NCBI RefSeq assembly: GCF_002954355.1
Contig: NZ_MQVV01000016.1
Span: 310,001-374,000, forward strand
Length of the DNA stretch: 64,000 nt
Reading direction: 5' to 3'
Origin: Nonlabens tegetincola
GTDB lineage: Bacteria > Bacteroidota > Bacteroidia > Flavobacteriales > Flavobacteriaceae
The notes beneath the pieces were generated by a model that saw only the letters and a list, made by a program, of their open reading frames with translations, had not been told where the DNA came from and did not search any database. The position numbers and the translations under genes are program-made. Positions 550-59,817 of the stretch are shown one piece after another. Numbering within the stretch: the stretch's first letter is position 1; every line of letters begins with the position of its first letter.

Positions 550-2085
550 TTATTGCTGCTGTGGTGGTTGTTGCTGTGGTTGTCTAAATAAATTAAGAAT
601 GGCTGGTCCTATAAAATTGCTAATAATGCTAGCTTTAAGACCTTCATGTGCATAGGTTTGAACAGCTAGATCACCACTAGCTCCATGCAGATAAACACCA
701 AACAATGTGGCAGTAATTGGATCATACTTTTGTGCAAGAAATGCCGCTATTACACCGCTTAATACATCACCACTTCCTGCTGTTGCCATACCTGGATTGC
801 CAGAATCATTAACAAACATACCTTGTGGTGTAACGGTAAAAGTGAATGCTCCTTTAAGGACTAAAATGACTTTATGTTCCATAGAGAATTTTTGAGCCTT
901 TGATAATTTATCATAGCTCCCTTTCCACTCTCCTATTAAACCTTTAAGTTCTCCATCATGCGGCGTGAGAATAGAGCTTTCTGGAATTTTCTTTAAAAGG
1001 TCTAGATCTCTTGACAGTAAATTGATTCCATCGGCATCAATAACCACCGGTGATGCTTGTTTAGATATCGCTTTCGCGAAAGCGGTGAAAGTATCATCTT
1101 TTAATCCCAGACCAGGACCTACACATAAAACATAATTCTGTAATTCGTGATCAAAATTAGTTATGTGAGATTCACCAGAACTTAAAATGCTCATTACCTC
1201 TGGAACCGAGCATTGTAATATAGTATTACCGTCTTCTGGAATAAGAGCCGTAACTTTTCCAGCACCTGCATTTATTGCTGCCCCAGAAGCAAGAACTGCC
1301 GCTCCCATTTTGCCTTCGCTACCAGCCATAACAAGCACATGACCGTAATCTCCTTTATGAGAAAAAGGGTTGCGATTTTTATACATGCGCTGGGCTAGAT
1401 CCTTGTCTACAAGGTTTGCAAGTGGCTGTACCTGCATCATATATTCCGGATCTAGTCCAATATTAATCACTTCATAAGTACCTACTAAATTTCCTGTTTC
1501 GGGAAGGAAAAAAGATAGTTTAGGAGTTTGAAAGGTAAAAGTATGATTGGCACGAATAACAGGCGCATCATTTTGCGCTTGATCTGCAAATAAGCCGCTA
1601 GGCATATCAACAGCTACTTTAAAGGCTCTTGAATTATTAATGTGCTCAACAAATTCTGCCATCCAACCATCAATGGGCCTATTTATTCCTGTACCAAAAA
1701 TCGCATCTATCACGATGTCTTGTTGACCAATTTCTGGAAAGTCATCTTTACAACTTAATAGAATAGGCCAATCTTTTGTAACCTCCTTAATTCTATCATA
1801 GTTTACAAGGAAATCCTTACTGCGCTTTTTACTGCAGTTGGTAACATAAGTGGTTACATGATATCCATGCTGGATGAGATGTCTTGCGATTGCTAGACCA
1901 TCACCACCATTATTACCTATTCCGCAAAATACTTTAATAGGAACAGGAGCTCCATTAAGTCGTTGATGTAAACGTTCAAAGACAAGAGTGGCAACACGCT
2001 CCATTAAATCAATACTTGAAATTTGCTGTTTTTGTATCGTAGAAGCATCTGCCTGAGCTAGTTGCTCGCCGCTTAATATTTTCAA
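550..2085 (-). CDS. nnr: Bifunctional NAD(P)H-hydrate epimerase / ADP-dependent dehydratase
   Basis: Repairs damaged NAD(P)HX. The N-terminal YjeF_N epimerase (residues about 1-220) carries the NNGGDG motif at 58-63. The C-terminal carbohydrate-kinase-like dehydratase (about 235-500) carries LTPHDGE and the GSGD nucleotide-binding motif near 437-440. At 511 aa it has the usual length of the fused form. The start is a TTG at 2085-2083: no ATG lies upstream, and the first residues (MKILSGEQL, then ISSIDLMERVA) match how the family begins. The C-terminus is a Gln/Pro-rich tail of about ten residues. The genome-wide palindrome falls in frame near residue 335, encoding AFAKA inside the dehydratase domain. 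Confidence 0.95.
   Translation of the reverse strand: MKILSGEQLAQADASTIQKQQISSIDLMERVATLVFERLHQRLNGAPVPIKVFCGIGNNGGDGLAIARHLIQHGYHVTTYVTNCSKKRSKDFLVNYDRIKEVTKDWPILLSCKDDFPEIGQQDIVIDAIFGTGINRPIDGWMAEFVEHINNSRAFKVAVDMPSGLFADQAQNDAPVIRANHTFTFQTPKLSFFLPETGNLVGTYEVINIGLDPEYMMQVQPLANLVDKDLAQRMYKNRNPFSHKGDYGHVLVMAGSEGKMGAAVLASGAAINAGAGKVTALIPEDGNTILQCSVPEVMSILSSGESHITNFDHELQNYVLCVGPGLGLKDDTFTAFAKAISKQASPVVIDADGINLLSRDLDLLKKIPESSILTPHDGELKGLIGEWKGSYDKLSKAQKFSMEHKVILVLKGAFTFTVTPQGMFVNDSGNPGMATAGSGDVLSGVIAAFLAQKYDPITATLFGVYLHGASGDLAVQTYAHEGLKASIISNFIGPAILNLFRQPQQQPPQQQ
1069..1084. repeat. 16-bp palindromic repeat, copy 1 (inside nnr)
   Basis: Exact CGCTTTCGCGAAAGCG. It is read by nnr as AFAKA in the dehydratase half. 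Confidence 0.97.
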
Positions 2086-2163
2086 AACCTTATAATTTAG
2101 AATTGCAAAATAAGCTTTTTGTAACAGCTTTTAAATAGGGTTAATATTCTTTAAAAAGTACCA

Positions 2164-2192
2164 TTGATTACAGTGTTGACTTCTTACATTTG
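2164..2192 (+). promoter_or_regulatory. Predicted gcvT promoter
   Basis: A TTG at 2164-2166 is followed after 18 bp by TACATTTG at 2185-2192. This matches the Bacteroidetes -33 TTG/TTTG and -7 TAnnTTTG consensus and lies 21 bp before the gcvT ATG. It is a sequence match only; the start site is not mapped. Confidence 0.6.
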
Positions 2193-2212
2193 TTCTACAG
2201 AATAATGGATTT

Positions 2213-3295: not shown

Positions 3296-3297
3296 GA

Positions 3298-4119: not shown

Positions 4120-4128
4120 GGTTTTTGA

Positions 4129-4962
4129 TTAAGGGATGTACTTGTTATCACCCCATTGAGGTGCTCGTTTTTCTAGAAATGCGTCGCGTCCTTCTCGAGC
4201 TTCATCAGTCATATAAATTAATCGGGTCATCTCGCCTGCAAAAACTTGCTGTCCTACCATTCCATCATCGGTAGCATTCATGGCAAATTTTGCCATTTTT
4301 ATCGCTGTAGGCGATTTCTTGAGAATTTCTTGTGCCCAGTCGTATGCAGTCTGTTCCAGTTCATCATGTGGTACGACAGCATTAACCATACCCATATCCA
4401 TTGCCTCTTGAGCACTGTAATTTTTTCCTAAAAAGAATATTTCTCTAGCCTTTTTCTGACCTACCATTTTTGCTAGATAAGCACTACCATAACCAGCGTC
4501 TACACTTGCTACATCGGTATCTGTTTGTTTAAAAATAGCATGCTCTTTACTGGCCAGTGTCATATCACAAACTACATGTAAACTATGACCACCGCCTACA
4601 GCCCAACCAGGTACCGCACAAATTACCACCTTTGGCATAAAACGTATCATACGTTGAACCTCAAGAATATTCAATCGACCTGTTCCTTCATCATCTTTAT
4701 AACCATCTACTCCACGTGCTCGTTGATCACCACCACTACAAAACGCCCAACCACCGTCTTTAGGTGATGGTCCTTCACCAGTTAATATAACTACGCCTAT
4801 CGAAAGATCTTCTTGAGCGTCATAAAATGCTTTTATAAGTTCACTTACGGTTTTAGGTCTAAAAGCGTTACGCACCTCTGGTCTATTAAACGCTATACGA
4901 GCTACACCATTGGACTTTTTGTAAGTAATATCTTCAAATTCGATTGCAGTTTTCCAGTTCAT
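4129..4962 (-). CDS. menB: 1,4-dihydroxy-2-naphthoyl-CoA synthase
   Basis: Cyclises o-succinylbenzoyl-CoA to DHNA-CoA in menaquinone synthesis. It is a crotonase-fold enzyme with NRPEVRNAFRPKT near the N-terminus, then FCSGGDQRARG, AVPGWAVGGGHSLHVVCD and SVDAGYGSAYLA. The ATG at 4962 (MNWKTAIEFEDI) gives 277 aa, the normal MenB length. A longer reading from 5043 only adds an unrelated tail that would overlap the upstream small gene. It lies within 8 kb of menD, menF and a MenI-like thioesterase on the same strand, though unrelated genes intervene. Confidence 0.96.
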   Translation of the reverse strand: MNWKTAIEFEDITYKKSNGVARIAFNRPEVRNAFRPKTVSELIKAFYDAQEDLSIGVVILTGEGPSPKDGGWAFCSGGDQRARGVDGYKDDEGTGRLNILEVQRMIRFMPKVVICAVPGWAVGGGHSLHVVCDMTLASKEHAIFKQTDTDVASVDAGYGSAYLAKMVGQKKAREIFFLGKNYSAQEAMDMGMVNAVVPHDELEQTAYDWAQEILKKSPTAIKMAKFAMNATDDGMVGQQVFAGEMTRLIYMTDEAREGRDAFLEKRAPQWGDNKYIP

Positions 4963-4993
4963 AATTGTAGTATTAAGGACTGCAAAGATAAAA

Positions 4994-5254
4994 CTAGTCT
5001 TTATACCAAACTCGTATAATTTGCATTGAAATTGTGATACCACTATGAAGGTTCAAGTGATAACTTGCTTTAGAATTCAACTCTTTACCTCTAGGAAATT
5101 GTTGTACTATAGTTTCTACATTAATTATTTCAAATGAATAATTTTTGCGCAACCACTCTTCCACTCTAGGCATTACATCGTCCAAGGTTTCATAGGTAGT
5201 ACCTTTCCAAAATGTTTTAGATACAGCTTTTGGAGCAAAATCAATGAATTTCAT
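4994..5254 (-). CDS. Small protein of unknown function upstream of menB
   Basis: An 86-residue soluble protein starting MKFIDFAPKAVSKTFWKGT, with a Trp-rich centre (VEEWLRKNYSFEIINVET) and no signal peptide or membrane segment. I do not recognise the family. Its stop lies 31 bp before the menB ATG, so it is probably in the menB transcript. The clear start, plausible composition and operon position argue that it is a real gene. Confidence 0.65.
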   Translation of the reverse strand: MKFIDFAPKAVSKTFWKGTTYETLDDVMPRVEEWLRKNYSFEIINVETIVQQFPRGKELNSKASYHLNLHSGITISMQIIRVWYKD

Positions 5255-5346: not shown

Positions 5347-5362
5347 CGCTTTCGCGAAAGCG
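5347..5362. repeat. 16-bp palindromic repeat, copy 2 (intergenic)
   Basis: Exact CGCTTTCGCGAAAGCG in the divergent intergenic region, not near a stop codon and without a T-run. Confidence 0.97.
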
Positions 5363-5619: not shown

Positions 5620-6024
5620 ATGAGCAAGGAGAAAAAACCGGATAGCGTAGTTTATGATGAAAAAACGGGAAAGTACAATGCTGCATTACTTCCCTATGCA
5701 AGTGGTGTAGGAGCTCCTAAAATAACTACACCCGACATCACTTCATGGAAACAATCTAATATTAATAAGGTTAACCACGAATTCAAGTCGCAATTTGATC
5801 AATTAAAGGCGCAGTATGAAGCCATGGTTTCAAAATTTGAAGCAAACCAACTTGTATACGGCGCACGATTTTCTTTTGAACCAATAGTCGGAGAAACCTA
5901 CCACCTATATCGTGACAAAAAACAAAATACTTTTCTTTCGGTTATAGCACCACACGAATGTAACTGGGATTTTGTAGGCTCCTTTAGACTTTCTTCAGAA
6001 AAAATCTGGGAACTGGTGTCATAA
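5620..6024 (+). CDS. DUF2452 domain protein
   Basis: A 134-aa soluble protein that matches my recollection of the DUF2452 family (related to human C1orf50), whose biochemical role is unknown. Family-like features are YNAALLPYASGVGAPKI near residues 19-35, a helical central stretch, and YHLYRDKKQNTFLSVIAPHEC near residues 92-112. No signal peptide or membrane helix is present. A TAAATTTG element ends only 4 bp before the ATG, so its mRNA could be nearly leaderless. Confidence 0.8.
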   Translation: MSKEKKPDSVVYDEKTGKYNAALLPYASGVGAPKITTPDITSWKQSNINKVNHEFKSQFDQLKAQYEAMVSKFEANQLVYGARFSFEPIVGETYHLYRDKKQNTFLSVIAPHECNWDFVGSFRLSSEKIWELVS

Positions 6025-6484: not shown

Positions 6485-6499
6485 TAACATGATAATAAC

Positions 6500-9029: not shown

Positions 9030-10703
9030 TTATCGTAAAAATTTAAAATAATTTAATAAAATCTCGTCATTCACTTTACTTGGAGTAACTATTTCTAACA
9101 ATTGTGGTTTATCATTTTTTGATAGAAATTGTTGGTACGCTTTCGCGAAAGCGGCCTCATCACCTACTTTGTGATACCCTATATGGTACATCTCGCACAA
9201 CTGTATAGCAGTTAAATCATGTTTGGTTTCAAAATACGTATCAAATTCATGAGTATCCTTATGGCCTGGTAATATTCTAAAAATACCACCACCAGAATTA
9301 TTGATAACTATGATTTTAAAGTTTTTGGGTATGTAGTTATTCCATAATGCATTTGAATCGTAAAAGAAACTAAGATCACCGGTAATAAAAATGCAGGGTC
9401 TGTCGCTTGCCATTGCTGCCCCTATAGCCGTACTCGTGCTTCCATCAATTCCACTTGTTCCACGATTTGCATAAATTTTATGTGAGGTATTCATAGGAAA
9501 TAATTGAGCATACCTTACCGTACTACTATTTCCTAATTGAAGCAGTATGTTATCAGGAAGATTCTGGAATAACAATTTATAAACCTTAAAGTCACACCAA
9601 GGCATAGTTTCAAAATAGGATTTCCTTTTTTCAATTCTATTCTTAAAAGTTTTCAACCAGTATTCCTGATATTGACTATTTACAGTTTTAGTTTGTAAGG
9701 ATTGAACCCATGTAGAAGGCTTTACTTTTATATGACCAGCAAGTTTAAAAAAAGTATCATAGGCTCTTCTTTTTCCTACGTGATAATGAATTTTGGTTTC
9801 AAATTTGCGCAAGTATTGTTTGATTTTTTTACTTACAATCATTCCTCCTATAGTTACCACCATATCGGGTTGTAGGTGAGTAATTTCCTCATCTATATTT
9901 TCAATAGGAGCTATTAAGGTATCTATTCCCCATACCACTTTGTCATGTCGGATATTGGATCCTACCTCACTCATGATTAAAACACTAGGATCTGATGTAA
10001 GTTTGTTTAAATCGGCTTCAGTAAGAACATCAACATTTAAGGTTGAAAGTATGATTAATTTTGAAGAACTTTTATCCCAATGTTTATAGAATTCATCTGG
10101 AATTATAGATGTTTCCTCTTTAAGAATGTCAATAGTTTTAACGTCTTTAATGGTAGACTTCTCTACCCTATTATACAGCGGTTCTTCAAAAGGAATGTTT
10201 ATATGAACTGGACCAGACCTAGCTATGGTGGTGTTTAAGGCTTTATTAAGTAATCTTTCATTAGTTGCGATTGATTCTACCTGTATTTTATCATGAATCA
10301 TGGTAAGCTCGCAATCGTATAAAATATGGTTGGAGTAAACGTGTTTTTGCCTTATGGTTTGACCATCTCCTATATCTATTTTATGCGGCGGCCTGTCGGC
10401 ACTTAAAACGATTAAAGGTATTTCACTATAATAGGCCTCAGTAACTGCCGGATAGTAATTGAGTAAAGCACTACCACTTGTACATAAAAGAGCCACAGGT
10501 TCTCTTAATTGTTGTGCCATTCCTAGAGCTACATGTCCTGCACAACGTTCATCTACAATACTATAACAGGTAAAAAAACTATCCTCAGTAAAACCGATGG
10601 TAAGAGGTGCATTACGTGATCCTGGAGAAATCACAATATGCTTAATTTGTCGTTTCTTAAAAAGCAAAACTACCTGCTGGGCATGAATTATTTCTGGCAA
10701 CAT
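9030..10703 (-). CDS. menD: SEPHCHC synthase (menaquinone biosynthesis)
   Basis: A ThDP enzyme that joins 2-oxoglutarate to isochorismate. The ATG at 10703 (MLPEIIHAQQVV) gives 557 aa; the codon further upstream is TTG and is not needed. Motifs: HIVISPGSRNAPLTI near the N-terminus, VALLCTSGSALLNYYPA, and the ThDP/Mg region ITGDLSFFYDSNALWNN near residue 455. Palindrome copy 3 is read in frame as AFAKA near residue 520. It follows menI and menF on the same strand after a 375-bp gap. Confidence 0.96.
   Translation of the reverse strand: MLPEIIHAQQVVLLFKKRQIKHIVISPGSRNAPLTIGFTEDSFFTCYSIVDERCAGHVALGMAQQLREPVALLCTSGSALLNYYPAVTEAYYSEIPLIVLSADRPPHKIDIGDGQTIRQKHVYSNHILYDCELTMIHDKIQVESIATNERLLNKALNTTIARSGPVHINIPFEEPLYNRVEKSTIKDVKTIDILKEETSIIPDEFYKHWDKSSSKLIILSTLNVDVLTEADLNKLTSDPSVLIMSEVGSNIRHDKVVWGIDTLIAPIENIDEEITHLQPDMVVTIGGMIVSKKIKQYLRKFETKIHYHVGKRRAYDTFFKLAGHIKVKPSTWVQSLQTKTVNSQYQEYWLKTFKNRIEKRKSYFETMPWCDFKVYKLLFQNLPDNILLQLGNSSTVRYAQLFPMNTSHKIYANRGTSGIDGSTSTAIGAAMASDRPCIFITGDLSFFYDSNALWNNYIPKNFKIIVINNSGGGIFRILPGHKDTHEFDTYFETKHDLTAIQLCEMYHIGYHKVGDEAAFAKAYQQFLSKNDKPQLLEIVTPSKVNDEILLNYFKFLR
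9138..9153. repeat. 16-bp palindromic repeat, copy 3 (inside menD)
   Basis: Exact CGCTTTCGCGAAAGCG, read as AFAKA close to the MenD C-terminus (KVGDEAAFAKAYQQ). Confidence 0.97.
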
Positions 10704-11078
10704 ATACCACAAAGGTAATAGCAGGCAATTACATTTCCTTGATATTAACGCTTAATTAAAGCTTAAGCTCGATACTCTTTTGGTCTATCTTAAAACGTCT
10801 TTAATCGAAATAAACGGCAAATCAGAAAAATAATCCAGTATTTGGGAAATTAAAAATTGCTAGGTCCATAAAATTTATCGATATTTAAAGTGTAAATCAG
10901 CCCAATTATGATCCTTATAAAATACTTGATTTTTTACAGTTTTGTACTTTTCTATCAAACGGGAATCTATTGTAAAAAAGCAGTTTATAGTATCATACTA
11001 TCTTTTAGAAGAAATGCTCAGTATGCAAAATCCTTCTCATTCAAGACCAGTTTAATACGTACTGCTTTTAGAAGTATT
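10704..11078. other. 375-bp gap between menF and menD
   Basis: Mostly AT-rich and without a conserved gene. A 58-codon + strand ORF (10908-11084, hydrophobic N-terminus MILIKYLIFYSFVLFY) overlaps the menF stop by 6 bp. It has no recognisable promoter or family and is probably chance. No terminator hairpin was seen, so menD may still be read from the menI-menF transcript. Confidence 0.5.
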
Positions 11079-12116
11079 TTATAAAACACGAAGCATAGTA
11101 CCCATTTTATTCACTGTTTCTAGATATTCTGCTTGGGCATGACTTAATGCTGTTATGCCGCCACCTACGTACAATGTAGCCGTTTTATCGTTCAATTCCA
11201 TGCATCTTAAATTGACAAAAAACTCTGCATTCTTATTGTTGTTATTCACCACTCCTAAAAAGCCTGTATAAAAGGACCTTTCGTATCCTTCATTTTCCTT
11301 AATAAATTGCAAAGCTTGTTTTGTAGGCATACCACAGACGGCTGGTGTAGGATGTAAAGCATTAAGATACTTATACATATTATTTGGGTTAATTTGTGCC
11401 TCAATATCAGTTTTTAGGTGGCAAATTGCTCCTGCTTGTACAGTTTGAGGTTGTGATGTTTCAATATCTGTTGCATCAGTCAATTTGAGTTGTTCAACTA
11501 TATAATCAGTGACTAGCTGTTGTTCTTCTCTCTCTTTTTTTCCCCAATAAATATCGGTCACTCCATCATAAGCTACTGTTCCAGCCAATGACATGGTTTT
11601 TAAAGTCGTGTTTTCGATTTTTAACAATAATTCTGGAGTTGCTCCCATCCAGGCACCTACTTTAGGATGATAAAAAAAGTAGCTGTTTGCCGTTGGATAC
11701 AAATTGAGCAGGCGTTCAAGTAATTTTACTTGTGACAAATGACTTTTAATAGTTTGCTTTCGCGAAAGCACTACTTTCCTTAAATCTCCTTGTTGTAAAT
11801 TATTAATAGCCTTGTCAACAAGTATTACATACTCATCTTTATTTACTTCTTTATCAAATTCTGGAAGAGTACTTTCAACCTTTTGCTGCGTCCAAGGAAA
11901 ACTTATACTATTTTCTACGGGTATATAAACACTATGTTGTTCTTTTAAAAAAGGAGCAAATACAATATAATCTTCTTCAAGAGGTGTAGTTTTATGCCAT
12001 TCTTGATCAGATTGATAGAATAAATTGACGCGATTTTCATTACTTTTTTTAAGTACAAAAAAGGGTAACTCTTGGGCTAAAAGTTGTGATACTTGATGTA
12101 AGAAAGGACTGTTCAC
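11079..12116 (-). CDS. menF: Isochorismate synthase
   Basis: Converts chorismate to isochorismate for menaquinone. It is a chorismate-binding enzyme of 345 aa with a short N-terminal part. Conserved segments are GATPELLL, MSLAGT, HPTPAVCGMPTKQAL and RSFYTGFLG. It starts with GTG at 12116, 2 bp after the stop of the upstream thioesterase. Palindrome copy 4 supplies LSRKQ within the conserved VVLSRK region, so the motif occupies a functional strand, not a surface loop. A siderophore-type DhbC role is unlikely given the men neighbours. Confidence 0.92.
   Translation of the reverse strand: MNSPFLHQVSQLLAQELPFFVLKKSNENRVNLFYQSDQEWHKTTPLEEDYIVFAPFLKEQHSVYIPVENSISFPWTQQKVESTLPEFDKEVNKDEYVILVDKAINNLQQGDLRKVVLSRKQTIKSHLSQVKLLERLLNLYPTANSYFFYHPKVGAWMGATPELLLKIENTTLKTMSLAGTVAYDGVTDIYWGKKEREEQQLVTDYIVEQLKLTDATDIETSQPQTVQAGAICHLKTDIEAQINPNNMYKYLNALHPTPAVCGMPTKQALQFIKENEGYERSFYTGFLGVVNNNNKNAEFFVNLRCMELNDKTATLYVGGGITALSHAQAEYLETVNKMGTMLRVL
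11755..11770. repeat. Palindromic repeat, copy 4 (inside menF)
   Basis: Core GCTTTCGCGAAAGC intact, with both outer bases changed symmetrically (T...A), so the palindrome is kept. Read as LSRKQ in MenF. Confidence 0.95.
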
Positions 12117-17973: not shown

Positions 17974-18019
17974 TTTGTCGCGTTTACGCTTTCGCGAAAG
18001 CGAAATAACATTATTTTTG
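17974..18019 (+). promoter_or_regulatory. Putative ppa promoter with palindrome in the spacer
   Basis: TTTG at 17974-17977 and TATTTTTG at 18012-18019 resemble -33 and -7 elements but are 34 bp apart. The 16-bp palindrome sits between them; without it the spacing would be a normal 18 bp. The true -33 might lie elsewhere. Confidence 0.4.
17987..18002. repeat. 16-bp palindromic repeat, copy 5 (upstream of ppa)
   Basis: Exact CGCTTTCGCGAAAGCG, 43 bp before the ppa ATG. Confidence 0.97.
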
Positions 18020-22044: not shown

Positions 22045-22596
22045 ATGAAATTACCAGCCTTCTACGACATCTTGATGTTCACACATCTAATGACAGTAGT
22101 GCCTTGTATTTTTTTAGGTGCTTATTTATTACTAAGATCTAAAGGAACTAAAATCCACCGCTTATTGGGTAAGATTTATATGAGCTTGATGGTAACTACA
22201 GCACTGATTTCTTTATTTATGCCAGCATTAGTAGGTGGTAGATTTCTTAATCATTTTGGGTGGATCCATCTTTTTAGTGCACTTACTTTATGGACGGTAC
22301 CCAGCTCTTTGTATGCTTTAAAAAAGAAAAATATACGCCGTCACAAAACAGGAATGATTCTTCTTTATGTAGGTGCTATAGTGATCGCAGGTGGCTTTAC
22401 ACTTGCTCCTGGTCGTTATTTGAATGAAGTGTTTTTCGGGCAATTACGCTTTCGCGAAAGCGTAACAACACTACCTCTTCAACGAAAAGTGGCCCGAAAG
22501 GGTTCTGCCGTCTGCTCGTTCTACAGTGAACCAATAGTCACTAGATGGCATGGGATTACCATTAAAAGTACCGTCCCAACCTACAGTTTGTGGTAA
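22045..22596 (+). CDS. DUF2306-type membrane protein with read-through C-terminus
   Basis: A small integral membrane protein with four predicted helices (residues about 8-28, 42-62, 72-90, 105-122) and the family's His residues in KIHRLLGKIYM and FGWIHLF. Relatives typically end shortly after a segment like YLNEVFFG. Here that segment is followed at once by the palindrome (LRFRES), then by about 45 residues antisense to the neighbour's C-terminus. The last 126 bp overlap the convergent T9SS gene. The tail is probably not functional sequence. Role of the family unknown. Confidence 0.75.
   Translation: MKLPAFYDILMFTHLMTVVPCIFLGAYLLLRSKGTKIHRLLGKIYMSLMVTTALISLFMPALVGGRFLNHFGWIHLFSALTLWTVPSSLYALKKKNIRRHKTGMILLYVGAIVIAGGFTLAPGRYLNEVFFGQLRFRESVTTLPLQRKVARKGSAVCSFYSEPIVTRWHGITIKSTVPTYSLW
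22447..22462. repeat. 16-bp palindromic repeat, copy 6 (between/inside convergent genes)
   Basis: Exact CGCTTTCGCGAAAGCG, extending to TTACGC...GCGTAA. It lies 8 bp beyond the stop of the 1,527-aa gene and is read as RFRES by the DUF2306 ORF. Confidence 0.97.
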
Positions 22597-28450: not shown

Positions 28451-28466
28451 CGCTTTCGCGAAAGCG
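28451..28466. repeat. 16-bp palindromic repeat, copy 7 (intergenic)
   Basis: Exact CGCTTTCGCGAAAGCG, extended to TACGC...GCGTA, in the 188-bp gap downstream of dnaB. Confidence 0.97.
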
Positions 28467-30116: not shown

Positions 30117-30320
30117 AGTTTTCAAAGGTAGTTTTTAAAGTAGGTTTATACTAGCTAGTCTATTCACCATTAACTAACAATCGTGTTTAAAAAGCATTTA
30201 ATAACCTGTTAATAAGGTACAAAAAATTTTGTTAAATAGGAAGTTTACACTAGCTCAAAAAAAATTGTAATTTTTCTATATTACTATTTGTCGTTGATAA
30301 CTTCTTTATTGAAAAAAAGC

Positions 30321-31513: not shown

Positions 31514-32425
31514 TTATTTACTTGTTTGTTTCTTTTTAAGTCTTGTCTTTATGATACCATTTGCTATAATAACAAGTAGGATTACTACAGCACCTAAATA
31601 AAACTCGGGTGTCATTTGCTCTTGCTCTTTGAAAATAAAATAGGCAAGTAATATTCCGTAAACCGGTTCTAGGTTAATGGTAAGCATCACCGTATAAGCA
31701 CTTAATACTTTCATTACTTTAACGCTGGCAATAAAGGCATAGGCTGTACACACTGAAGCTAGAATTCCCAACCATAACCAATCGTAAACAGACAATGCTA
31801 CTGGAGCTACAAAGTCTATTGGTAATATCAAGAAAAATAAAGAGAGTAGAACGACACCACTTGCCAGCTCATAAAAAGAAATAACGGTAGGATTATAAAC
31901 TTTGGCCCAACTTACATTCATAATACTGAATACAGCGCTTAACAGTGCACTTGTCAATCCTAGCAAGATCCCTTCTATATAATTACTTTCTACCGTGAAT
32001 ATGTAATATAGTGCTCCAATAATTATAATCCCGAAGATTAATTCGTAGCCAACAAATTTTTTAGGTGTAAATAGAGGTTCCAACAAGGCCGTGAAAAAGG
32101 CTCCTGTACTCATCATTGCCAAACAGATGAACACATTAGAAACTTTAATGGCACCAAAAAAAGTAACCCAGTGTAAGGCTATTACGCAACCTGCCAAGCA
32201 GAATGATAGAATACGCTTTCGCGAAAGCGTATTAACTCCATCACCTAGCAACGAGATCCCTTTGATCTTTATATAGATAAAAATAAAAATCACCGCTAGC
32301 AACATACGGTACCAAACCAAAGGAATGGAATCAATACTTATAAGAGCTCCTAAAACAGCGGTAAAACCCCAAATAAAAACAATGAGGTGTAAATGGAGAT
32401 AATTAACTACTCTATCGTCTGGCAT
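31514..32425 (-). CDS. EamA/DMT family transporter
   Basis: A 303-aa inner-membrane protein with ten predicted helices in two EamA repeats, as in drug/metabolite exporters. Cargo unknown. It overlaps the stop of the upstream permease by 14 bp, so tgt, the permease and this gene form one operon. Palindrome copy 8 falls in a cytoplasmic loop near residue 67 (TLSRKRILS). Confidence 0.9.
32214..32229. repeat. 16-bp palindromic repeat, copy 8 (inside the EamA gene)
   Basis: Exact CGCTTTCGCGAAAGCG, palindromic out to AATACGC...GCGTATT. Read as LSRKR between two membrane helices. Confidence 0.97.
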
Positions 32426-34820: not shown

Positions 34821-35666
34821 ATGGCTGATATACAGCAATTAAAAGACATCGTAACCCAAGTACGCCGCGACATAGTACGACAGGTTCATGCAGTAAATAG
34901 TGGTCACCCAGGTGGATCCCTAGGCTGTGCAGAGTTTATCGTTACTCTCTATAATGAGATCATGGATCACAATCCAGATTTTAGTATGGATGGAGTTAAT
35001 GAAGATTTATTTTTCTTATCAAACGGGCACATATCTCCCGTTTACTACAGTGTCCTTGCGAGAGCTGGATATTTCCCTGTAGAAGAATTAAATACTTTTA
35101 GAAAACTAAACACTCGCCTACAAGGACATCCTACCACTCATGAAGGTTTACCAGGTATACGCATTGCTAGTGGTTCACTAGGACAAGGAATGAGTGTAGC
35201 TATAGGTGCCGCTCTTGCAAAAAAATTGAATAACGATGACAAAACCGTATTCAGTTTGCATGGTGATGGCGAACTTCAAGAAGGTCAAATTTGGGAAGCT
35301 GCCATGTACGCTAGTGCAAATCATGTAGACAATTTAATCGCTACAATCGATGTAAATGGTCAACAAATTGATGGCTCTACCGATGCTGTATTATCACTAG
35401 GTGATCTGAAAAATAAATTTGAGGCTTTTGGTTGGGAAGTACTTACCATCGAAAAAGGAAATGATATTGAAGCTGTGGTAAATGGAGTACGTGAGGCTAT
35501 TTCGCTTTCGCGAAAGCGAAAACCTATTTGCATCCTACTTCACACTGAAATGGGTAATGGTGTAGATTTTATGATGGGATCACACAAATGGCATGGAGTA
35601 GCACCTAATGATGAGCAATTAGAAAGTGCTCTTGCTCAAAACCCAGAAACTTTAGGAGATTATTAA
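34821..35666 (+). CDS. Transketolase, N-terminal subunit
   Basis: ThDP-binding half of a split transketolase of the pentose phosphate and Calvin-type interconversions. 281 aa with VNSGHPGGSLGCAEFIVTLY, GSLGQGMSVAIGAALAKK and the ThDP signature GDGELQEGQIWEA followed by the conserved Asn. The C-terminal half follows after 19 bp. Palindrome copy 9 encodes LSRKRK near residue 230. Confidence 0.95.
   Translation: MADIQQLKDIVTQVRRDIVRQVHAVNSGHPGGSLGCAEFIVTLYNEIMDHNPDFSMDGVNEDLFFLSNGHISPVYYSVLARAGYFPVEELNTFRKLNTRLQGHPTTHEGLPGIRIASGSLGQGMSVAIGAALAKKLNNDDKTVFSLHGDGELQEGQIWEAAMYASANHVDNLIATIDVNGQQIDGSTDAVLSLGDLKNKFEAFGWEVLTIEKGNDIEAVVNGVREAISLSRKRKPICILLHTEMGNGVDFMMGSHKWHGVAPNDEQLESALAQNPETLGDY
35503..35518. 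repeat. 16-bp palindromic repeat, copy 9 (inside transketolase)
   Basis: Exact CGCTTTCGCGAAAGCG, palindromic out to TTTCGC...GCGAAA. Read as SLSRKRK. Confidence 0.97.
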
Positions 35667-39079: not shown

Positions 39080-39661
39080 ATGGAATTAGATCAACGATAC
39101 TGGAATGATAGATACCTGAATAACACCGCAAAATGGGATTTGGGTCAAATTTCAACTCCAATAAAAGAATATGTTGATGGAATCATTAATAAAAATGTAA
39201 AGATTCTAATACCTGGTGCAGGGAATTCATACGAGGCCGAGTACCTACATAAAATAGGATTTAGCGATATTACCGTTATTGATATAGCCAGTGAACCTCT
39301 TTTAAATTTAGAAAGTAGACTCCCAAAGTCTCATAACCTTAAACTCATTAAAGAAAATTTCTTTAATCATCAGGGAAACTATGATTTAATTATCGAACAA
39401 ACGTTTTTATGCGCATTGGAATTACGCTTTCGCGAAAGCTACCCTATTAAAATGAGTGATTTACTCAACAGCAATGGAATACTTGCAGGTGTTTTATTTA
39501 CTATAGATAAGAATCGAAGTGAACCTCCTTTTGGCGGAACAATGGAAGAATATCGTAAATTATTTGAACCACTATTTAAAATAGAGACATTAGAACCTTG
39601 TTACAACTCTGTACCAGACAGAAAAAACAAAGAAGTGTTTATACAATTTAAAAAGAAATGA
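39080..39661 (+). CDS. SAM-dependent methyltransferase (thiopurine S-methyltransferase-like)
   Basis: 193 aa with WNDRYLNNTAKWDLGQ at the N-terminus, SAM motif I ILIPGAGNSYEAEYL near residue 48, and QTFLCALE. This is the TPMT/TehB-like group found across Flavobacteriia; substrate unknown. Palindrome copy 10 is inserted right after LCALEL as RFRES, close to the active-site strand. Its TGA overlaps the next ATG (ATGA). Confidence 0.88.
   Translation: MELDQRYWNDRYLNNTAKWDLGQISTPIKEYVDGIINKNVKILIPGAGNSYEAEYLHKIGFSDITVIDIASEPLLNLESRLPKSHNLKLIKENFFNHQGNYDLIIEQTFLCALELRFRESYPIKMSDLLNSNGILAGVLFTIDKNRSEPPFGGTMEEYRKLFEPLFKIETLEPCYNSVPDRKNKEVFIQFKKK
39425..39440. repeat. Palindromic repeat, copy 10 (inside methyltransferase)
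   Basis: CGCTTTCGCGAAAGCT: the 14-bp core is intact and the last base is changed. Read as RFRES. Confidence 0.95.
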
Positions 39662-44348: not shown

Positions 44349-46855
<2,507 letters not shown>

Positions 46856-46877
<22 letters not shown>

Positions 46878-47989
46878 CCATTATAGGAATGGGGTGTGCA
46901 GGTAGTCATGTAGTACTACAATTGCTCGAGAATGCGCCACATTTAAAAGTGGCTATACTTGATCCATACGGGTCTTTAACTCAAGAAAAAACATGGAGCT
47001 TTTGGGAAAAAGGTCCTGGTAAGTATGACGACTTAATCATTGCCAGTTGGAAAAAATGTAGATTTCACACAGGAGATGAGGAATTATCCCTTACCATGAA
47101 TCCTTACCTATATAAATCAATAGAGAATGTGAAGTTTTCCGCTTTCGCGAAAGCGCAATTACATCAAAATTCCAAATACCATTACATCGGGAGTGAAGTA
47201 ACACACTTAGAGCAAACACATAATTCCAAAGAACTAACCGTATCATACAATAACGGCTCATTAACCGCAGATTTAGTTCTAGATAGTAGACCATTAGAGG
47301 ACATTCCATCAACTGGGATTACACTGTTGCAACACTTTAAAGGATGGTTCATTGAAACGCCAGAAGATTATTTTGACTCAAAGGAATTTACTAAAATGGA
47401 TTATCAACTGGTTGATCCAGGAACAACTAGCTTTGTTTATGTACTTCCGTTTTCTAAAAGAAAGGCGCTAGTGGAGTATACCTACTTTGCTAAAAATCTG
47501 GTGCAAGACGATGTTTATGATCAGTACCTTGAAACCTATATTACAGACTTTTTAAAAATCAGTGATTATAAGATAACCAAGGTAGAAAAAGGGATTATTC
47601 CTATGACAAGTCATGATTTTAAACCCTTTAAAAATAAGGATGTAGTTACAATAGGAACTGCTGGTGGCTGGGTAAAGGCAAGTACTGGTTATAGTTTTAA
47701 AAATAGCGAACGACTTGCCCGACAATTGGTAAAAAATTATCTAGAAAACAGACCTCTTTTCTATAAAATGACTAATAAAAAGTACGAAGTTTTTGACGAA
47801 ACTCTACTGCGCGTTTTACACGAGAATGAAGCTTCTGGTCCTGAGATATTTAGTAAAATGTACCAGCGCAACAGTGTACAAAATATCATGGCTTTTCTAG
47901 ATGAAGAAAGCAACCTTCTTGCTGAATTAGGAATTATGAAGTCACTTACTTCATGGCCCTTTGTAAAGAACTTTTTTAAGTCTCTTTAA
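46856..47989 (+). CDS. crtY: Lycopene beta-cyclase
   Basis: A flavoprotein of 377 aa that makes beta rings from lycopene. It has IAIIGMGCAGSHVV at the N-terminus, DPYGSLTQEKTWSFW, and TIGTAGGWVKASTGYSF. Copy 12 of the palindrome is read as AFAKA near residue 96. The 3' end overlaps the convergent crtA-like gene by 14 bp. In this operon it may act at one end only, giving a monocyclic product. Confidence 0.93.
47140..47155. repeat. 16-bp palindromic repeat, copy 12 (inside crtY)
   Basis: Exact CGCTTTCGCGAAAGCG, read as FSAFAKAQL. Confidence 0.97.
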
Positions 47990-51593: not shown

Positions 51594-51976
51594 ATGTGTG
51601 TTTTTTTATCCGTTTTTTAGGTGTTGCGAATTTACAAAACAGACTTCATAATTGAAAATAATCAACGACAATCAAAAAACAGTGAAATATTTCCATTAAA
51701 TCAACTATTTGATAAGATAAAATTTACCAAATAGTCAATTAATATTCGTTATCATTAATAGATTATCAATATAAAATGAATCTAAATAGAATAAAAACAG
51801 AGATAATATGGGGTTTGCTTTCGCGAAAGCGAGAGTATTCAACTAACATAAAGCCGTAAAATCTTAAGATTTTAAAGCTACCTTGAATAATACTATGACA
51901 GCGCTAAGCAACGTTTCCGTCGATTAGCATTAACCAAAATTTAAAACGAATAATTAATTTCTAGTAGAAATTGTTA
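51594..51976. other. 383-bp gene-free region between moxR and acn
   Basis: Contains palindrome copy 13 (51816-51831) and a separate perfect 16-bp AT-rich palindrome AAAATCTTAAGATTTT at 51858-51873. No ORF or clear terminator was seen. The DUF58 gene that usually follows moxR is absent. Confidence 0.6.
51816..51831. repeat. Palindromic repeat, copy 13 (intergenic)
   Basis: TGCTTTCGCGAAAGCG: the 14-bp core is intact and one outer base is changed. Confidence 0.95.
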
Positions 51977-52930
51977 TTACAGGATTTGGGCAATGATACT
52001 TTCTTCTGTAAAACCTTCTGCTTCGGCCTTGTAATTTTTAATAATACGGTGACGTAAGATACCGTTTGCTACTGCTTGTACATCTTCAATATCTGGACTG
52101 TACTTACCATTAACAGCTGCGTGAGTTTTGGCAGCTAGAATAAGATTTTGCGATGCACGTGGTCCAGCACCCCAATCTATATATTCCTTTATGATTTCAG
52201 GAACATTTTCACCATTAGGTCTTGTTTTCCCTACTAGTCCTACTGCGTATTCAATGACATTATCTGCTACTGGAATACGGCGTACCAATTGCTGAAAATC
52301 AATAATCTCCTGAGCTGTGAATAAAGGATTTACAGTTGGTTTGTGGTCGCTTGTAGTAGATTTTACAACATTTACCTCTTCTTCAAAGCTAGGGTATTCG
52401 AGTTTGATAGAAAACATAAACCTGTCCAATTGCGCTTCTGGTAAAGGGTAAGTTCCTTCCTGTTCTATAGGGTTTTGTGTGGCAAGTACAAAATAAGGTT
52501 TATCTAAAACATAATTATGACCTGAAACTGTAACCTTGCGCTCCTGCATAGCTTCTAGTAAGGCTGCTTGAGTTTTAGGTGGAGTTCTATTGATCTCATC
52601 GGCTAGAATAATATTAGAAAACACAGGTCCTTTTATAAATTTAAAGGTCCTATTCTCGTCCAGTATTTCACTTCCTAATATATCACTAGGCATAAGGTCT
52701 GGCGTAAACTGTATGCGTTTGAATTGTAGTCCTAGAGCTTGTGAAATTGTATTCACCATAAGTGTTTTGGCTAGCCCTGGAACTCCTACTAGTAAAGCAT
52801 GTCCTCCAGAAAAAATGGAGATAAGAATTTCGTCGATCACTCGTTCTTGACCAATGATGACTTTTCCTATTTCCTTTTTTAATTCTTTGTGCTTTTTGAC
52901 TAGATTATCAATCGCTGCTACATCAGACAT
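51977..52930 (-). CDS. MoxR family AAA ATPase
   Basis: 317 aa with Walker A GVPGLAKTL near residue 44, Walker B IILADEINRTPPKTQ and sensor 1 FVLATQNPIEQEG. MoxR ATPases act as chaperones for VWA partners. Here it sits downstream of three PPIase genes on the same strand, suggesting an envelope-protein maturation role, and no VWA/DUF58 gene is adjacent. Confidence 0.93.
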   Translation of the reverse strand: MSDVAAIDNLVKKHKELKKEIGKVIIGQERVIDEILISIFSGGHALLVGVPGLAKTLMVNTISQALGLQFKRIQFTPDLMPSDILGSEILDENRTFKFIKGPVFSNIILADEINRTPPKTQAALLEAMQERKVTVSGHNYVLDKPYFVLATQNPIEQEGTYPLPEAQLDRFMFSIKLEYPSFEEEVNVVKSTTSDHKPTVNPLFTAQEIIDFQQLVRRIPVADNVIEYAVGLVGKTRPNGENVPEIIKEYIDWGAGPRASQNLILAAKTHAAVNGKYSPDIEDVQAVANGILRHRIIKNYKAEAEGFTEESIIAQIL

Positions 52931-52966: not shown

Positions 52967-52982
52967 CGCTTCTGCGAAAGCA
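52967..52982. repeat. Degenerate palindrome copy upstream of moxR
   Basis: CGCTTCTGCGAAAGCA, 13 of 16 bases equal to the repeat. The right arm is kept and the left arm is altered, so the palindrome is broken. Confidence 0.6.
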
Positions 52983-57332: not shown

Positions 57333-57821
57333 ATGATCAAAACTTCAAATGAGATTACAATTCATAAACCTATCGATGAGGTTATGAAGTTATTTAAGGA
57401 ACAGGATTATTTTCAGCACTGGCAAAAAGGGCTTATCTCTTTTAAAAACTTAAGCTCACAAACAGGTCAAGTAGGTAGTAAACGTAGTATGAGAATTAAA
57501 ACCAGCGTTGCTACTATTTCAATGATTGAGGAAATCACACATTTAGACTTACCTCACTTGTGGGCAGCGACTTATCGTACTCGTGGAGTAGTTAATGAAC
57601 AATGTAACCGCTTTCGCGAAAGCGTAATTAAAAACAACAACTCACAACATAAAGTAACCCTTTGGCAAGCTAGTTCTACCTTTAAATTCACCGGGATGAT
57701 GCGACTAGCAGCCAAAGCAAACCCGAAGGTTTTCACCTCACAAACGCTCCAACATATGCAAGATTTTAAGATATTTGCCGAAACTGGAAAAAGTGTAAAA
57801 ACAGGTGATTACGTCTTATGA
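57333..57821 (+). CDS. SRPBCC/START-like protein
   Basis: 162 aa, predicted helix-grip fold: begins EITIHKPIDEVMKLFKEQDYFQHWQKG, a classic polyketide-cyclase/SRPBCC start. Ligand unknown. Palindrome copy 14 is in frame as RFRES near residue 94, replacing what is normally a beta strand turn. Its stop overlaps the next ATG (ATGA). First of a four-gene operon. Confidence 0.8.
   Translation: MIKTSNEITIHKPIDEVMKLFKEQDYFQHWQKGLISFKNLSSQTGQVGSKRSMRIKTSVATISMIEEITHLDLPHLWAATYRTRGVVNEQCNRFRESVIKNNNSQHKVTLWQASSTFKFTGMMRLAAKANPKVFTSQTLQHMQDFKIFAETGKSVKTGDYVL
57609..57624. repeat. 16-bp palindromic repeat, copy 14 (inside SRPBCC gene)
   Basis: Exact CGCTTTCGCGAAAGCG, read as NRFRESVI. Confidence 0.97.
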
Positions 57822-58057
57822 GAAAACTAAAATTAATTTGGGATTTTAAAGGTCCTCATGCACAAAAAACAGCACAGCATCACCTTATTCATTTAAAGGA
57901 GTATGTAACTATGGAAGGCATTAATAGCCTAGGAAATGGTGTTGAAAAATTAAATGAAAATCATTACATCGCTTTTCTAGGAGTTAATGAAGATGTTATG
58001 CCACCAGTACGAGATGCCCTTAAACCACATCGAGGTCAATTGTGGATAGAAAGTTAA
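57818..58057 (+). CDS. Small protein of unknown function
   Basis: 79 aa, starting MRKLKLIWDFKGPHAQKTA, with a His-rich stretch (HHLIHLKEYV) and ending HRGQLWIES. Soluble and without a signal peptide; I do not recognise the family. Translational coupling by ATGA to the SRPBCC gene supports that it is real and functionally linked. Confidence 0.7.
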   Translation: MRKLKLIWDFKGPHAQKTAQHHLIHLKEYVTMEGINSLGNGVEKLNENHYIAFLGVNEDVMPPVRDALKPHRGQLWIES

Positions 58058-58102
58058 ACTAAAAGATCTTTATGTTGTATATTTAATCATAAATCCCAAG
58101 CT

Positions 58103-58444
58103 ATGATGACTACCGACCACCTATCCTGGACTATGGAACAATTTCGTGTTTACTTAATTCTTTATTGTTCAAAAATTGATATTTCCCAATCTTGTGAAGA
58201 ATTAAAGTGGATGCAAACGCACTTTGATAAAGAGCGATATGAAGAAATGCTATTAATTTTTAGACGTGATGCAGATTATAAAAGTATAGTTCGCATTGAG
58301 GAATACGTTAAGCATAACAACCTATCAAAACCTCAAGTAGAAAAAATCCTACATGATGTTAAAGACTTTTTTACTGCCGATGGTAGTTATGATATCATGG
58401 AACAGCATTTAATGAATGTATTGAAATCAATTTTCAAAGGATGA
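58103..58444 (+). CDS. Small helical protein of unknown function
   Basis: 113 aa, all-helical by composition, with LYCSKIDISQSCEELKWMQ and HDVKDFFTADGSYDIMEQ. It is faintly reminiscent of TerB-like proteins, but without a convincing metal site. Start ATG at 58103 or 58106. It overlaps the oxidase gene by 4 bp (ATGA), so it is translated with it. Confidence 0.65.
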   Translation: MMTTDHLSWTMEQFRVYLILYCSKIDISQSCEELKWMQTHFDKERYEEMLLIFRRDADYKSIVRIEEYVKHNNLSKPQVEKILHDVKDFFTADGSYDIMEQHLMNVLKSIFKG

Positions 58445-59817
58445 TTCATACCCTTTTTGCCGATCACCTATCTACTAAACAAATCATTCACGGTGCAGGC
58501 TTAAAAAGCCGATATCATCATATATGGCACATGGATGAGCCACTAGCAGCAGCTTGTGTCCTATTACCAGAATCTACCCAACAAGTAAGCACCATCCTTA
58601 AAATTTGTCATGATCATGGACTAGCCGTAGTAACTCATGGCGGATTAACAAATCTTGTAGGTAGCACTGAAACCAAAGAGAACGACGTGGTAATTTCTCT
58701 CGAAAGAATGAATCAAATAGAAGAAATTGATTCAGAAAGCCGAACTGCAACCATACAAGCTGGCGTTATTCTAGAAGAATTACATCGCGCTACAGATAAG
58801 CAGGAATTACTATTCCCATTAAATTTTGGAGCTCGCGGAAGCGCACAAATTGGTGGGATCATTGCTACTAATGCTGGTGGTTTGCGTGTTTTAAAATATG
58901 GCATGACACGCCAATTAATCCTAGGTTTAGAAGTGGTACTAGCTGATGGTACAATAGTATCCAACCTACGTAAAATTATTAAAGATAATAGTGGTTATGA
59001 CCTTAAACAACTATTTATAGGAAGTGAAGGAACTCTAGGAATAATCACTAAAGCAGTTGTCAAACTTGTAGAAAAACCTAAAAGTAGGTACGCTGCTTAT
59101 GCTGGATTAAAAAAATATGAAAGCGTTATCCAATTACTCAAATATATAGATGCAGGAGCATCAGGTAAACTTACAGGTTTTGAACTTATCTGGAAAAACA
59201 CCTATGAGCAATTAACAAGTGCCAGTGATGCAGTAAGACCACCGCTTCCCTATGACTATGAGTATTATGTTTTAATCGAAATCCAAGGAGCTCATCCCGA
59301 TAAGGACATTCAATTACTAGAGCATTTATTGGAGAATGCACTGGAAGAAGAAATTATAGAAGATGCCGTTATAGCCAGATCACAAAGCGAGGTAGACTGG
59401 TTCTTCAGAATAAGAGAAGACGTTAATAATTTGGTTGATTTCATGCCTTATGACCAGCATTTTGATATAAGTATTCCTATACCTGAAATAGGACGTTACA
59501 TAGCACGATGTTACTCACGCTTTCGCGAAAGCGGAATAGCTACACAAGTATATGCATTTGGCCATGTAGCCGATGGTAACATACACCTAATGATAGGAAA
59601 AAATGACACCAGTAAATCAACCAAAGAAGCCATTGACCATCTTGTATATCAAGAAATTGAAACTTTAAATGGTTCTGTAAGCGCAGAACATGGTATAGGA
59701 AATCATAAAAAAGCCTACCTGAAATTTTCCAAATCAGATTCTGAAATTGCAATTATGAAAGCGCTTAAAAACCAATTAGATCCTAAAGGGATCATGAATC
59801 CAGGTAAAATTTTTTAA
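58441..59817 (+). CDS. FAD-binding oxidase (GlcD / D-lactate dehydrogenase type)
   Basis: 458 aa. FAD_binding_4 domain with VVTHGGLTNLVGS near residue 63 and IIATNAGGLRVLKYG near residue 140, then a C-terminal FAD-oxidase domain with VYAFGHVADGNIHLM and SAEHGIGNHKK. It oxidises a 2-hydroxy acid such as glycolate or D-lactate; the exact substrate is open. No GlcE or GlcF subunit is adjacent. Palindrome copy 15 encodes RFRES near residue 362. Confidence 0.9.
   Translation: MIHTLFADHLSTKQIIHGAGLKSRYHHIWHMDEPLAAACVLLPESTQQVSTILKICHDHGLAVVTHGGLTNLVGSTETKENDVVISLERMNQIEEIDSESRTATIQAGVILEELHRATDKQELLFPLNFGARGSAQIGGIIATNAGGLRVLKYGMTRQLILGLEVVLADGTIVSNLRKIIKDNSGYDLKQLFIGSEGTLGIITKAVVKLVEKPKSRYAAYAGLKKYESVIQLLKYIDAGASGKLTGFELIWKNTYEQLTSASDAVRPPLPYDYEYYVLIEIQGAHPDKDIQLLEHLLENALEEEIIEDAVIARSQSEVDWFFRIREDVNNLVDFMPYDQHFDISIPIPEIGRYIARCYSRFRESGIATQVYAFGHVADGNIHLMIGKNDTSKSTKEAIDHLVYQEIETLNGSVSAEHGIGNHKKAYLKFSKSDSEIAIMKALKNQLDPKGIMNPGKIF
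59518..59533. repeat. 16-bp palindromic repeat, copy 15 (inside the oxidase gene)
   Basis: Exact CGCTTTCGCGAAAGCG, read as SRFRESG shortly before the conserved GHVADGN motif. Confidence 0.97.

Follow-up and report, generated by a model that had tools for sequence, protein, structure and literature searches.

The question raised by this locus is why one palindrome should recur along a stretch of chromosome, and what might read it. To our knowledge, few DNA marks are kept by a bacterial clade at a near-regular interval with such strictness, even within genes. The window, which is the whole 64,000-nucleotide stretch of Nonlabens tegetincola DNA analysed here, has a G+C of 0.352 and contains the 14-bp palindrome GCTTTCGCGAAAGC 15 times. 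Twelve of these copies are exact 16-mers; in the remaining three 14-mers, the outer bases carry one mismatch (two copies) or two mismatches (one copy). A degenerate copy at 52967 departs from the 14-mer by two bases and from the 16-mer by three, and 14-mers with exactly one mismatch were not found in the window. The TTCGCGAA octamer also occurs 15 times in the window, in each case (15/15) within the 14-mer. All 15 start coordinates and the 12 exact 16-mers of the original prediction were borne out by recount. The sites, which have no strand of their own, are given below with the strand of the neighbouring ORFs.

1069..1084, exact 16-mer, in ORF 550-2085(-), a YjeF_N/Carb_kinase protein; reads AFAKA
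5347..5362, exact 16-mer, intergenic, between ORFs 4129-5043(-) and 5620-6024(+)
9138..9153, exact 16-mer, in the TPP-enzyme ORF 9030-10712(-); reads AFAKA
11755..11770, exact 14-mer with two outer bases changed, in the chorismate-binding ORF 11079-12116(-); reads LSRK
17987..18002, exact 16-mer, intergenic, between divergent ORFs 16691-17839(-) and 18045-18581(+)
22447..22462, exact 16-mer, where converging ORFs 22045-22596(+) and 22471-27054(-) end
28451..28466, exact 16-mer, intergenic, between ORF 27127-28389(-) and the dnaB-like ORF 28578-30125(-)
32214..32229, exact 16-mer, in the EamA ORF 31514-32425(-)
35503..35518, exact 16-mer, in the transketolase-N ORF 34821-35666(+)
39425..39440, exact 14-mer with last outer base T, in the TPMT-like ORF 39080-39661(+)
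45518..45533, exact 16-mer, in the amine-oxidoreductase ORF 44795-46261(+), probably a phytoene desaturase; reads RFRES
47140..47155, exact 16-mer, in the lycopene cyclase ORF 46856-47989(+); reads AFAKA
51816..51831, exact 14-mer with first outer base T, intergenic, between ORFs 49326-51593(-) (aconitase) and 51977-52930(-)
52967..52982, degenerate copy, 14-mer with two mismatches
57609..57624, exact 16-mer, in the 162-aa ORF 57333-57821(+), which has no Pfam family
59518..59533, exact 16-mer, in the FAD-linked oxidase ORF 58441-59817(+); reads RFRES
45488..45563, example of the full element, the 16-mer with about 30 bp per side; the arms described below are averages over 193 sites and not the letters of this copy

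The copies had been described as free of ORFs, which is not the case, as 11 of the 15 lie within mechanically listed ORFs, 22447 being doubtful because two converging ORFs end there. The claim that chance would yield far less than one copy is well founded. In 100 dinucleotide shuffles with up to three mismatches permitted, the mean was 0.02 matches and the maximum 1, as compared with 16 in the real window. The whole-genome count that had been proposed as a check gave 577 copies in the 3.03-Mb genome (about 190 per Mb) against about 0.003 expected from the window G+C, and the reversed-string control gave zero. The copies are therefore neither at chance level nor limited to the window; chance origin is ruled out by the shuffles together with the genome count, and a merely local feature by the genome count.

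The palindrome is confined to a lineage. In Nonlabens, each of the 23 genomes searched (23/23, this one included) holds 288-857 copies, and among 397 genomes of the family more than 20 copies are found only in Nonlabens and two other genera, one of them represented by Dokdonia sinensis. In a one-gene tree of DnaB, seven copy-rich genomes form a single clade with moderate support (81/89, below the starred level). The holders are one marine Flavobacteriaceae group, comprising Nonlabens, Dokdonia, and two further copy-rich genomes, with roughly one site per 4-7 kb. Lineage confinement and strong genome-wide over-representation are features shared with the uptake sequences DUS and USS. In 120 kb of the sister genome G188, no 10- or 12-base palindrome was over-represented to a comparable strength.

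A larger, two-fold symmetric element of about 74 bp is centred on the palindrome. Averaged over 193 sites, each arm is G/T-rich and C-poor, the G/T-rich strand sits 5′ of the site on either strand, and the bias is gone by 30 bp. The two arms are biased independently and are alike in composition, not in sequence. The absence of common flanks, as originally stated, is thus contradicted by a symmetric base bias reaching about 30 bp on either side. Symmetry over this distance points to a dimer. Genome G234 shows a weaker arm bias and a less pronounced outer C (in 16 arms, C 0.167 and G 0.321; outer C 0.62). The majority of copies match to the letter; one-mismatch copies are scarce, with 11 alongside 95 exact ones and 14 alongside 98. 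Copies with the arm bias are also present in islands in other genera and in viral contigs, the control set for sporadic copies being ten loci hand-chosen by organism name among the matches listed. Where the viral contig exceeds about 46% G+C, most matches show no bias and resemble chance hits. Two closely related phages, named Nonlabens phages and isolated on Persicivirga sp., contain zero copies, as judged from the phage genomes alone, and a 30-letter consensus, compared with annotated phages and plasmids, matched only weakly (E 2-8) and in those of unrelated hosts.

Along the chromosome, the gaps are strongly even (n = 81, CV 0.478 vs. 0.99 for random placement), and none of 20,000 random sets was as even. 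Close neighbours are avoided, but gaps as short as 270 bp in G004 weaken this. At two places the site is shifted by about 0.8 kb between species, and both positions are never occupied together. In G020, 20 of 20 sampled stretches spanning the whole chromosome carry 1-7 sites, which rules out restriction to ter or ori; the stretch counts taken alone indicate only mild evenness (P 0.09). The eight widest gaps of C10 had no distinctive G+C.

The species-to-species turnover of sites occurs by point substitution. In alignments with congeners, sites are gained or lost through substitutions that also alter amino acids, and synonymous codons are frozen at sites. With ten congeners tried for each, site 28451 is exact in all six alignable ones, 39425 in 5 of 6, 35503 in 5 of 8 (two of the three lacking it have a site about 850 bp off), and 32214 in 1 of 7 (three of the six lacking it have one about 800 bp off). 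Of ten aligned congeners, nine have site 47140 intact, and site 45518 is exact in 17 of 21 other aligned species. In the site-by-congener table, 71 of 120 cells lack cover, and the 35/47 count leaves out two alignments, at sites 5348 and 9139, which are short and probably spurious. The protein first taken as synteny anchor (window 22471-27054) is one of a large repeated family and gave no usable synteny; of 18 other genomes, a phytoene-desaturase-like query reached only two at E 1e-60.

These alignments bear directly on a short mobile or inserted element, such as a REP/RAYT-like repeat or an IS end. Numerous exact copies are what it would leave behind, but alignment with species lacking the site reveals no missing block of its size at the empty place, and arms that match in composition and not in sequence also speak against it, so that this origin can hardly be entertained. 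The prediction had rightly set transposons and REP aside. The aligner placed 2-base gaps in two of the empty-place alignments. Terminators are rejected as well, since 70-74% of Nonlabens copies (70/95 and 69/98) lie within ORFs, though only 16/33 in Dokdonia; despite the Nonlabens majority inside, sites are enriched outside ORFs.

Organisation of the chromosome, methylation, uptake or recombination, and a correction process had been put forward as roles, and these proved a fair list of candidates. The hundreds of exact copies, evenly spaced and kept even within genes, make it probable that GCTTTCGCGAAAGC is a recognition mark read by a protein, whose purpose is perhaps the discrimination of own from foreign DNA. 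The best reading, to which a probability of about 0.4 may be given, is a clade-specific self-DNA recognition site resembling uptake sequences. A clade-specific protein would read the site on double-stranded DNA in uptake and/or homologous recombination. As in the uptake systems of Neisseriaceae and Pasteurellaceae, site-bearing DNA would be taken up preferentially, and its recombination into the chromosome would repeatedly restore exact sites. Because one site per incoming fragment suffices, the number of sites would level off at a regular spacing comparable to fragment length. The element holds 39.8 bits of information, whereas 12.4 bits suffice to locate 577 places; such an excess would be expected if own DNA is told from all foreign DNA, or if a drive pushes the sites toward a single perfect string. 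Also in favour of this reading are the even spacing and the shifted sites, the turnover by substitution with its frozen synonymous codons, the placing of most Nonlabens sites in ORFs alongside the enrichment outside them, the arm-biased copies in islands and viral contigs as against their absence from the two phages, and the existence of another iterated word, TTTCCGAAG, in other genera. Should the site prove to be a signal for uptake or recombination, no earlier one is known to us from marine Bacteroidetes, and it would help to explain partners in gene exchange.

Like DUS and USS, GCTTTCGCGAAAGC has hundreds of near-perfect copies, genic and intergenic, in a specific lineage, and a core with a biased flanking tract. 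The DUS and USS known to us are asymmetric, whereas this element is an exact palindrome with two mirror arms, both biased, and its symmetry counts against the uptake reading. In PMC7811141, the H. influenzae USS is likewise a core with flanking AT tracts, at a density of about 1 kb per site, so that GCTTTCGCGAAAGC, with one per about 5 kb, is sparser. Natural transformation is reported for Riemerella, placed by the authors of that report in Flavobacteriaceae. The paucity of one-mismatch copies also counts against uptake, as does the view of one author (PMC1939737) that uptake sequences are less even in spacing than compaction sites should be.

The main rival, a serious possibility with the odds somewhat against it, is a clade-specific organising dimer or tetramer with a footprint of about 70 bp, anchored every 5 kb or so for looping, supercoil control, or condensation. 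It agrees with the two-fold symmetry of core and arms and the independent bias of each arm, with the even spacing and the shifting of sites between species, and with the presence of sites across the whole G020 chromosome. One inner position is tolerant, as protein contacts can be, with the T adjoining CGCG altered in 15 of the 25 one-mismatch copies from G000 and G020. However, the information is far beyond the need of such a protein, and simple bending would not be expected to give strand-asymmetric arms. The sites of parS, Noc, MatP, and SlmA are palindromes read by dimers, and GCTTTCGCGAAAGC is palindromic too; unlike them, it has 577 evenly spread copies, with 0 of 20 sampled stretches of one chromosome empty, and most genomes that carry it lack a ParB paralogue. 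A single ParB was found in 18 of 23 copy-rich and 12 of 13 copy-poor genomes, which argues against a second ParB-family protein as the organiser and, together with the canonical parS words in this genome, rules out a Noc/ParB site. If the element is architectural, a new type of genome-organising protein would come to light.

The polarity of the arms has suggested a two-way Chi-like site, at which a helicase-nuclease arriving from either side would load RecA on the 5′ G/T-rich strand, the even spacing protecting own DNA. After Chi, RecA is loaded on the 5′ side of the site, which is where the G/T-rich strand lies on each strand, and the density of GCTTTCGCGAAAGC resembles that of Chi in E. coli. 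Known Chi sites are, however, short and asymmetric, unlike this 14-bp palindrome, and RecC was found in 0 of 37 copy-rich and copy-poor genomes, with a positive E. coli control. A RecBCD Chi is thereby ruled out, the only candidate enzyme is of the AddAB type, and a Chi-like role is improbable.

A HIP1-type mark, in which the palindrome would be made and maintained by a repair process together with an orphan methyltransferase acting on the inner CGCG or TCGCGA, is rated as quite improbable. The CGATCG mark of HIP1 is the work of the cytosine-5 methylase class. The likeness to HIP1 seen originally stands as regards iteration and palindromy: like HIP1 and the alternate cyanobacterial HIPs, GCTTTCGCGAAAGC is a GC-rich iterated palindrome, lineage-confined and clade-wide, with gain and loss by substitution. 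It fails in that the element is larger than the HIP1 octamer (14 bp plus 30-bp arms, about 74 bp), stricter, and evenly spaced, the 40 bits and the spacing being values for GCTTTCGCGAAAGC only. Moreover, the search for a C5 methylase found none in 11 of the 23 copy-rich genomes, including four assembled as single contigs (G010, G020, G022, and G234), a result that rules out obligatory C5 methylation; specificity for 14 bp plus arms is also unfavourable, and repair without local saturation is not expected to space sites evenly. PMC4390886 links HIPs to methyltransferases, which favours this explanation, but gives them a density of 1000-2000 per Mb, as against about 190 per Mb here. Because the C5 methylase is missing from many copy-rich genomes, the element is relevant to both classical interpretations of HIP1-like repeats, methylation and self-recognition.

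Other genera bear a different iterated oligomer, TTTCCGAAG, whose 3′ side is A-rich in one genome. In the self-recognition reading, it is conceivable, though rather doubtful, that GCTTTCGCGAAAGC is a two-sided self-DNA mark, a mirror element of about 74 bp with regulated density over the whole genomes of one clade, and that TTTCCGAAG has the same role in related genera, the two being dialects of a single flavobacterial self-recognition system that would have its own reader protein; a two-sided mark of this kind would then, just as tentatively, be one not described before. The situation recalls DUS dialects, which follow phylogeny according to PMC3630211. The spacing of TTTCCGAAG is uneven (CV 0.94 and 0.99), which weakens the self-recognition reading, and it may therefore be something else; its control was the reversed string, which lacks the CpG. 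In G033, 18 copies were seen together with 80 carrying one mismatch, and the word could there be partly a coding habit.

The 14-mer GCTTTCGCGAAAGC, the core of the 16-bp perfect palindrome, is present at all 15 window positions of the original prediction, in 12 cases as the exact 16-mer that had been claimed. The expected excess over chance also holds: with up to three mismatches, 16 matches are found in the window as compared to a mean of 0.02 in 100 dinucleotide-preserving shuffles, and the whole genome (3,028,293 bases in 21 contigs, with the window at C16:310001-374000) contains 577 copies of the 14-mer and none of the reversed string. All 15 occurrences of the octamer TTCGCGAA in the window lie within the 14-mer, and no single-mismatch version of the 14-mer occurs there. 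In 464 kb of the same genome, 95 exact copies are accompanied by 11 with one mismatch and 2 with two; in 400 kb of the congener G020, the corresponding numbers are 98, 14, and 12. The changed base is the T adjoining the central CGCG in 15 of the 25 one-mismatch copies of these two genomes, and in 12 of those 15 it is replaced by C.

Between 288 and 857 copies are carried by all 23 Nonlabens genomes searched, that of the window included; outside the genus, 35 of 36 relatives have no copy and one has 6. (N. ulvanivorans, strain BBFL7, N. antarcticus, and N. xiamenensis are fits for genomes G001, G003, G018, and G016, respectively.) In a survey of 397 genomes of the family, 317 are without any copy, and more than 20 are reached only by the four Nonlabens drawn, G234 (408), and Dokdonia sinensis (857), the next highest count being 19. 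Among the named records listed, 903 copies occur in Dokdonia pacifica and 369 in a MAG with the label Cytophagaceae SAT149. When 30 genomes are placed on a DnaB tree, a single change suffices for the seven copy-rich genomes (support 81/89), and so low a number of changes was reached in none of 500 shuffles. The SAT149 MAG clusters with two Dokdonia (100/100), and G188, with 9 copies, adjoins the copy-rich genomes. With moderate support from this one gene, a single origin of the iterated palindrome is the simplest reading.

The element extends beyond its core. Position −1, just outside, is C in 93%, and the left arm, from −4 to about −30, is poor in C and rich in G and T, with a bias that fades outward; the C share is 2–10% at −4 to −18 versus 17–20% far from the site. 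The right arm mirrors the left in base bias. Over 193 sites, there is more G than C in 88% of left arms and in 90% of right arms, the bias being independent in each, and beyond the outer C the same sites give no clear sign of exact palindromy. Arm bias is similar in coding and noncoding copies and is absent in ten sporadic copies outside the clade, a control set hand-picked by organism name (C 0.227, G 0.243). The arm C share is 0.062 in Dokdonia, 0.088 in islands of other genera, and 0.123 in viral contigs taken together, all of them biased; in G234 the bias is weaker (C 0.167, 16 arms). Core, outer bases, and arms amount to 39.8 bits, as computed from 203 sites that are exact or have a single mismatch, versus the 12.4 needed to locate 577 places in the genome.

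At site 45519, in the carotenoid region, 17 of 21 other species have an exact copy of the palindrome, in aligned DNA that is only 69–73% identical. The residues R-F-R-E-S are encoded there as CGC TTT CGC GAA AGC almost without synonymous change, with a top-codon share of 0.91–1.00, whereas 268 conserved columns average 0.58. At this place, D. sinensis and the site-free G031 have different codons, mostly different residues, and no gap. Across six sites and ten congeners, 35 of 47 alignable cells are exact; site-less species show several substitutions and no site-sized insert, with 2-base gaps introduced by the aligner in two cases. A phytoene-desaturase-like match with one in-frame TGA was observed in D. 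sinensis (L254, G250:C34:129819-131285).

Sites lie wholly within ORFs in 70 of 95 cases in the window's genome, 69 of 98 in G020, and 16 of 33 in Dokdonia; since ORF cover, at 91–92%, exceeds these shares, sites lie preferentially in intergenic DNA. The palindrome is read in each of the three frames, in about half of the cases as AFAKA. In 405 kb of contig C10, the 81 gaps between sites have a mean of 4,994 bp, a minimum of 1,407 bp, and a CV of 0.478, and 20,000 random placements gave a mean CV of 0.99, none being equally even. Spacing is even, although less so than in the window's genome, in D. sinensis (CV 0.55, 21 gaps), D. pacifica (0.65, 29 gaps), and G004 (0.69, 60 gaps, minimum 270 bp), and the G020 chromosome has 1–7 sites in each of 20 stretches spread along it. 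Three of the six species without site 32215 (G020, G004, and G022) carry a site near 31,415, and two of the three without site 35504 (G017 and G010) carry one near 34,650; both members of a shifted pair occur together in none of ten congeners. These pairs, small in number, and the gap statistics suggest that a close neighbour renders a site dispensable. Such a pattern is also accounted for if the palindrome is the site of an architectural dimer, a chromosome-organising protein, and so are symmetry, strict sequence, gain by substitution, and clade restriction; the excess information is left over, and this reading is considered only slightly less probable than self-DNA recognition. The question of recognition versus organisation is old, since Karlin et al., as reported in PMC1939737, regarded the regular intervals between uptake sequences as pointing to a function in replication, repair, or compaction.

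Any mechanism has to account for the strictness of the sequence and its surplus of information, for its symmetry, for an even spacing in which sites shift between species, for sites gained by substitution within genes, and for confinement to one clade. Self-DNA recognition, in which the palindrome would be a recognition site maintained by drive, explains all of them except symmetry, and it is given a probability of 0.4. No description of the 14-mer was found in the open-access literature, although subscription journals may hold one, and the best-ranked open-access matches for Nonlabens palindromes and for shorter parts of the palindrome held nothing on the subject. As regards candidate trans-acting factors, RecC was found in 0 of 37 genomes by a search that was positive in E. 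coli. The search for a C5 methylase was negative in 11 of the 23 copy-rich genomes, of which four are single-contig, so this enzyme is not required. A single ParB is encoded by 18 of the 23 copy-rich and by 12 of 13 copy-poor genomes, and two exact parS words lie on C10 at about 258.5 and 260.4 kb.

Several other genera carry few, clustered copies. Five genomes (G122, G131, G145, G259, and G447) share a pair of sites at a distance of 933 bp, and related site-bearing stretches in six genomes are 67–95% alike. In the G131 island (L214, L215), 8 of 10 examined ORFs encode members of efflux or heavy-metal ATPase families; L214 also carries an ApeA-like HEPN gene. The stretches L214–L222 are related islands with the palindrome and biased arms, in host chromosomes otherwise nearly without it. 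Such islands may derive from the copy-rich clade. Several viral contigs (33–44% G+C) likewise carry sites with biased arms, and the sampled genes of one, L147, encode head and tail proteins of a phage. A group of phage contigs conserves two sites 4480 bp apart; the distance is exact in all four (L131, L134, L135, and L147), which may be near-copies of one phage. The phages P12024S and P12024L bear the name of Nonlabens phages and were isolated on Persicivirga sp. IMCC12024. They have no site and no TCGCGA, the closest match having 3 mismatches; about 7 sites would be predicted if the density in the window's genome applied to them, and the two are closely related and count as one observation.

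A second iterated word, TTTCCGAAG, is strongly enriched in a minority of the 397 genomes (both strands), as the following counts illustrate; its reversed string lacks CpG and is a rough control.

Copies of TTTCCGAAG and of its reversed string, both strands
G322: 1166 and 93
G107: 1048 and 115
G033: 921 and 91
G120: 817 and 58
G327: 774 and 82

It is rare in the four Nonlabens drawn (2–6 versus 24–37 for the reversed string) and less low in D. sinensis (31 versus 65) and G234 (39 versus 88). In 80 kb of G120 it occurs 31 times versus 0.5 expected from base composition, in both orientations, in all frames, and also between genes, with an A-rich 3′ side. The word is nonpalindromic (loci L314–L317 in G120, L345–L346 in G122, L328–L329 in G145, and L348–L351 in G033), is not evenly spaced, and resembles one half of the 14-mer palindrome (TTTC-CGAAG, TTTCGCGAAAG); it may be a dialect of a signal of this kind.

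Other repeats were also observed. A dispersed repeat of G084 (L330–L331), whose words include AGACGACCC and AGTGTCACG, has 23 copies in 40 kb at 12 distinct 500-bp places. Further over-represented G+C-rich 9-mers in G259 (L343–L344) and G020 (L194–L199) are perhaps other repeat families. In the window, positions 22471–27054 hold a 1527-aa ORF whose last ~440 residues resemble many other ORFs, with 26 matches in the same genome and further ones in congeners.
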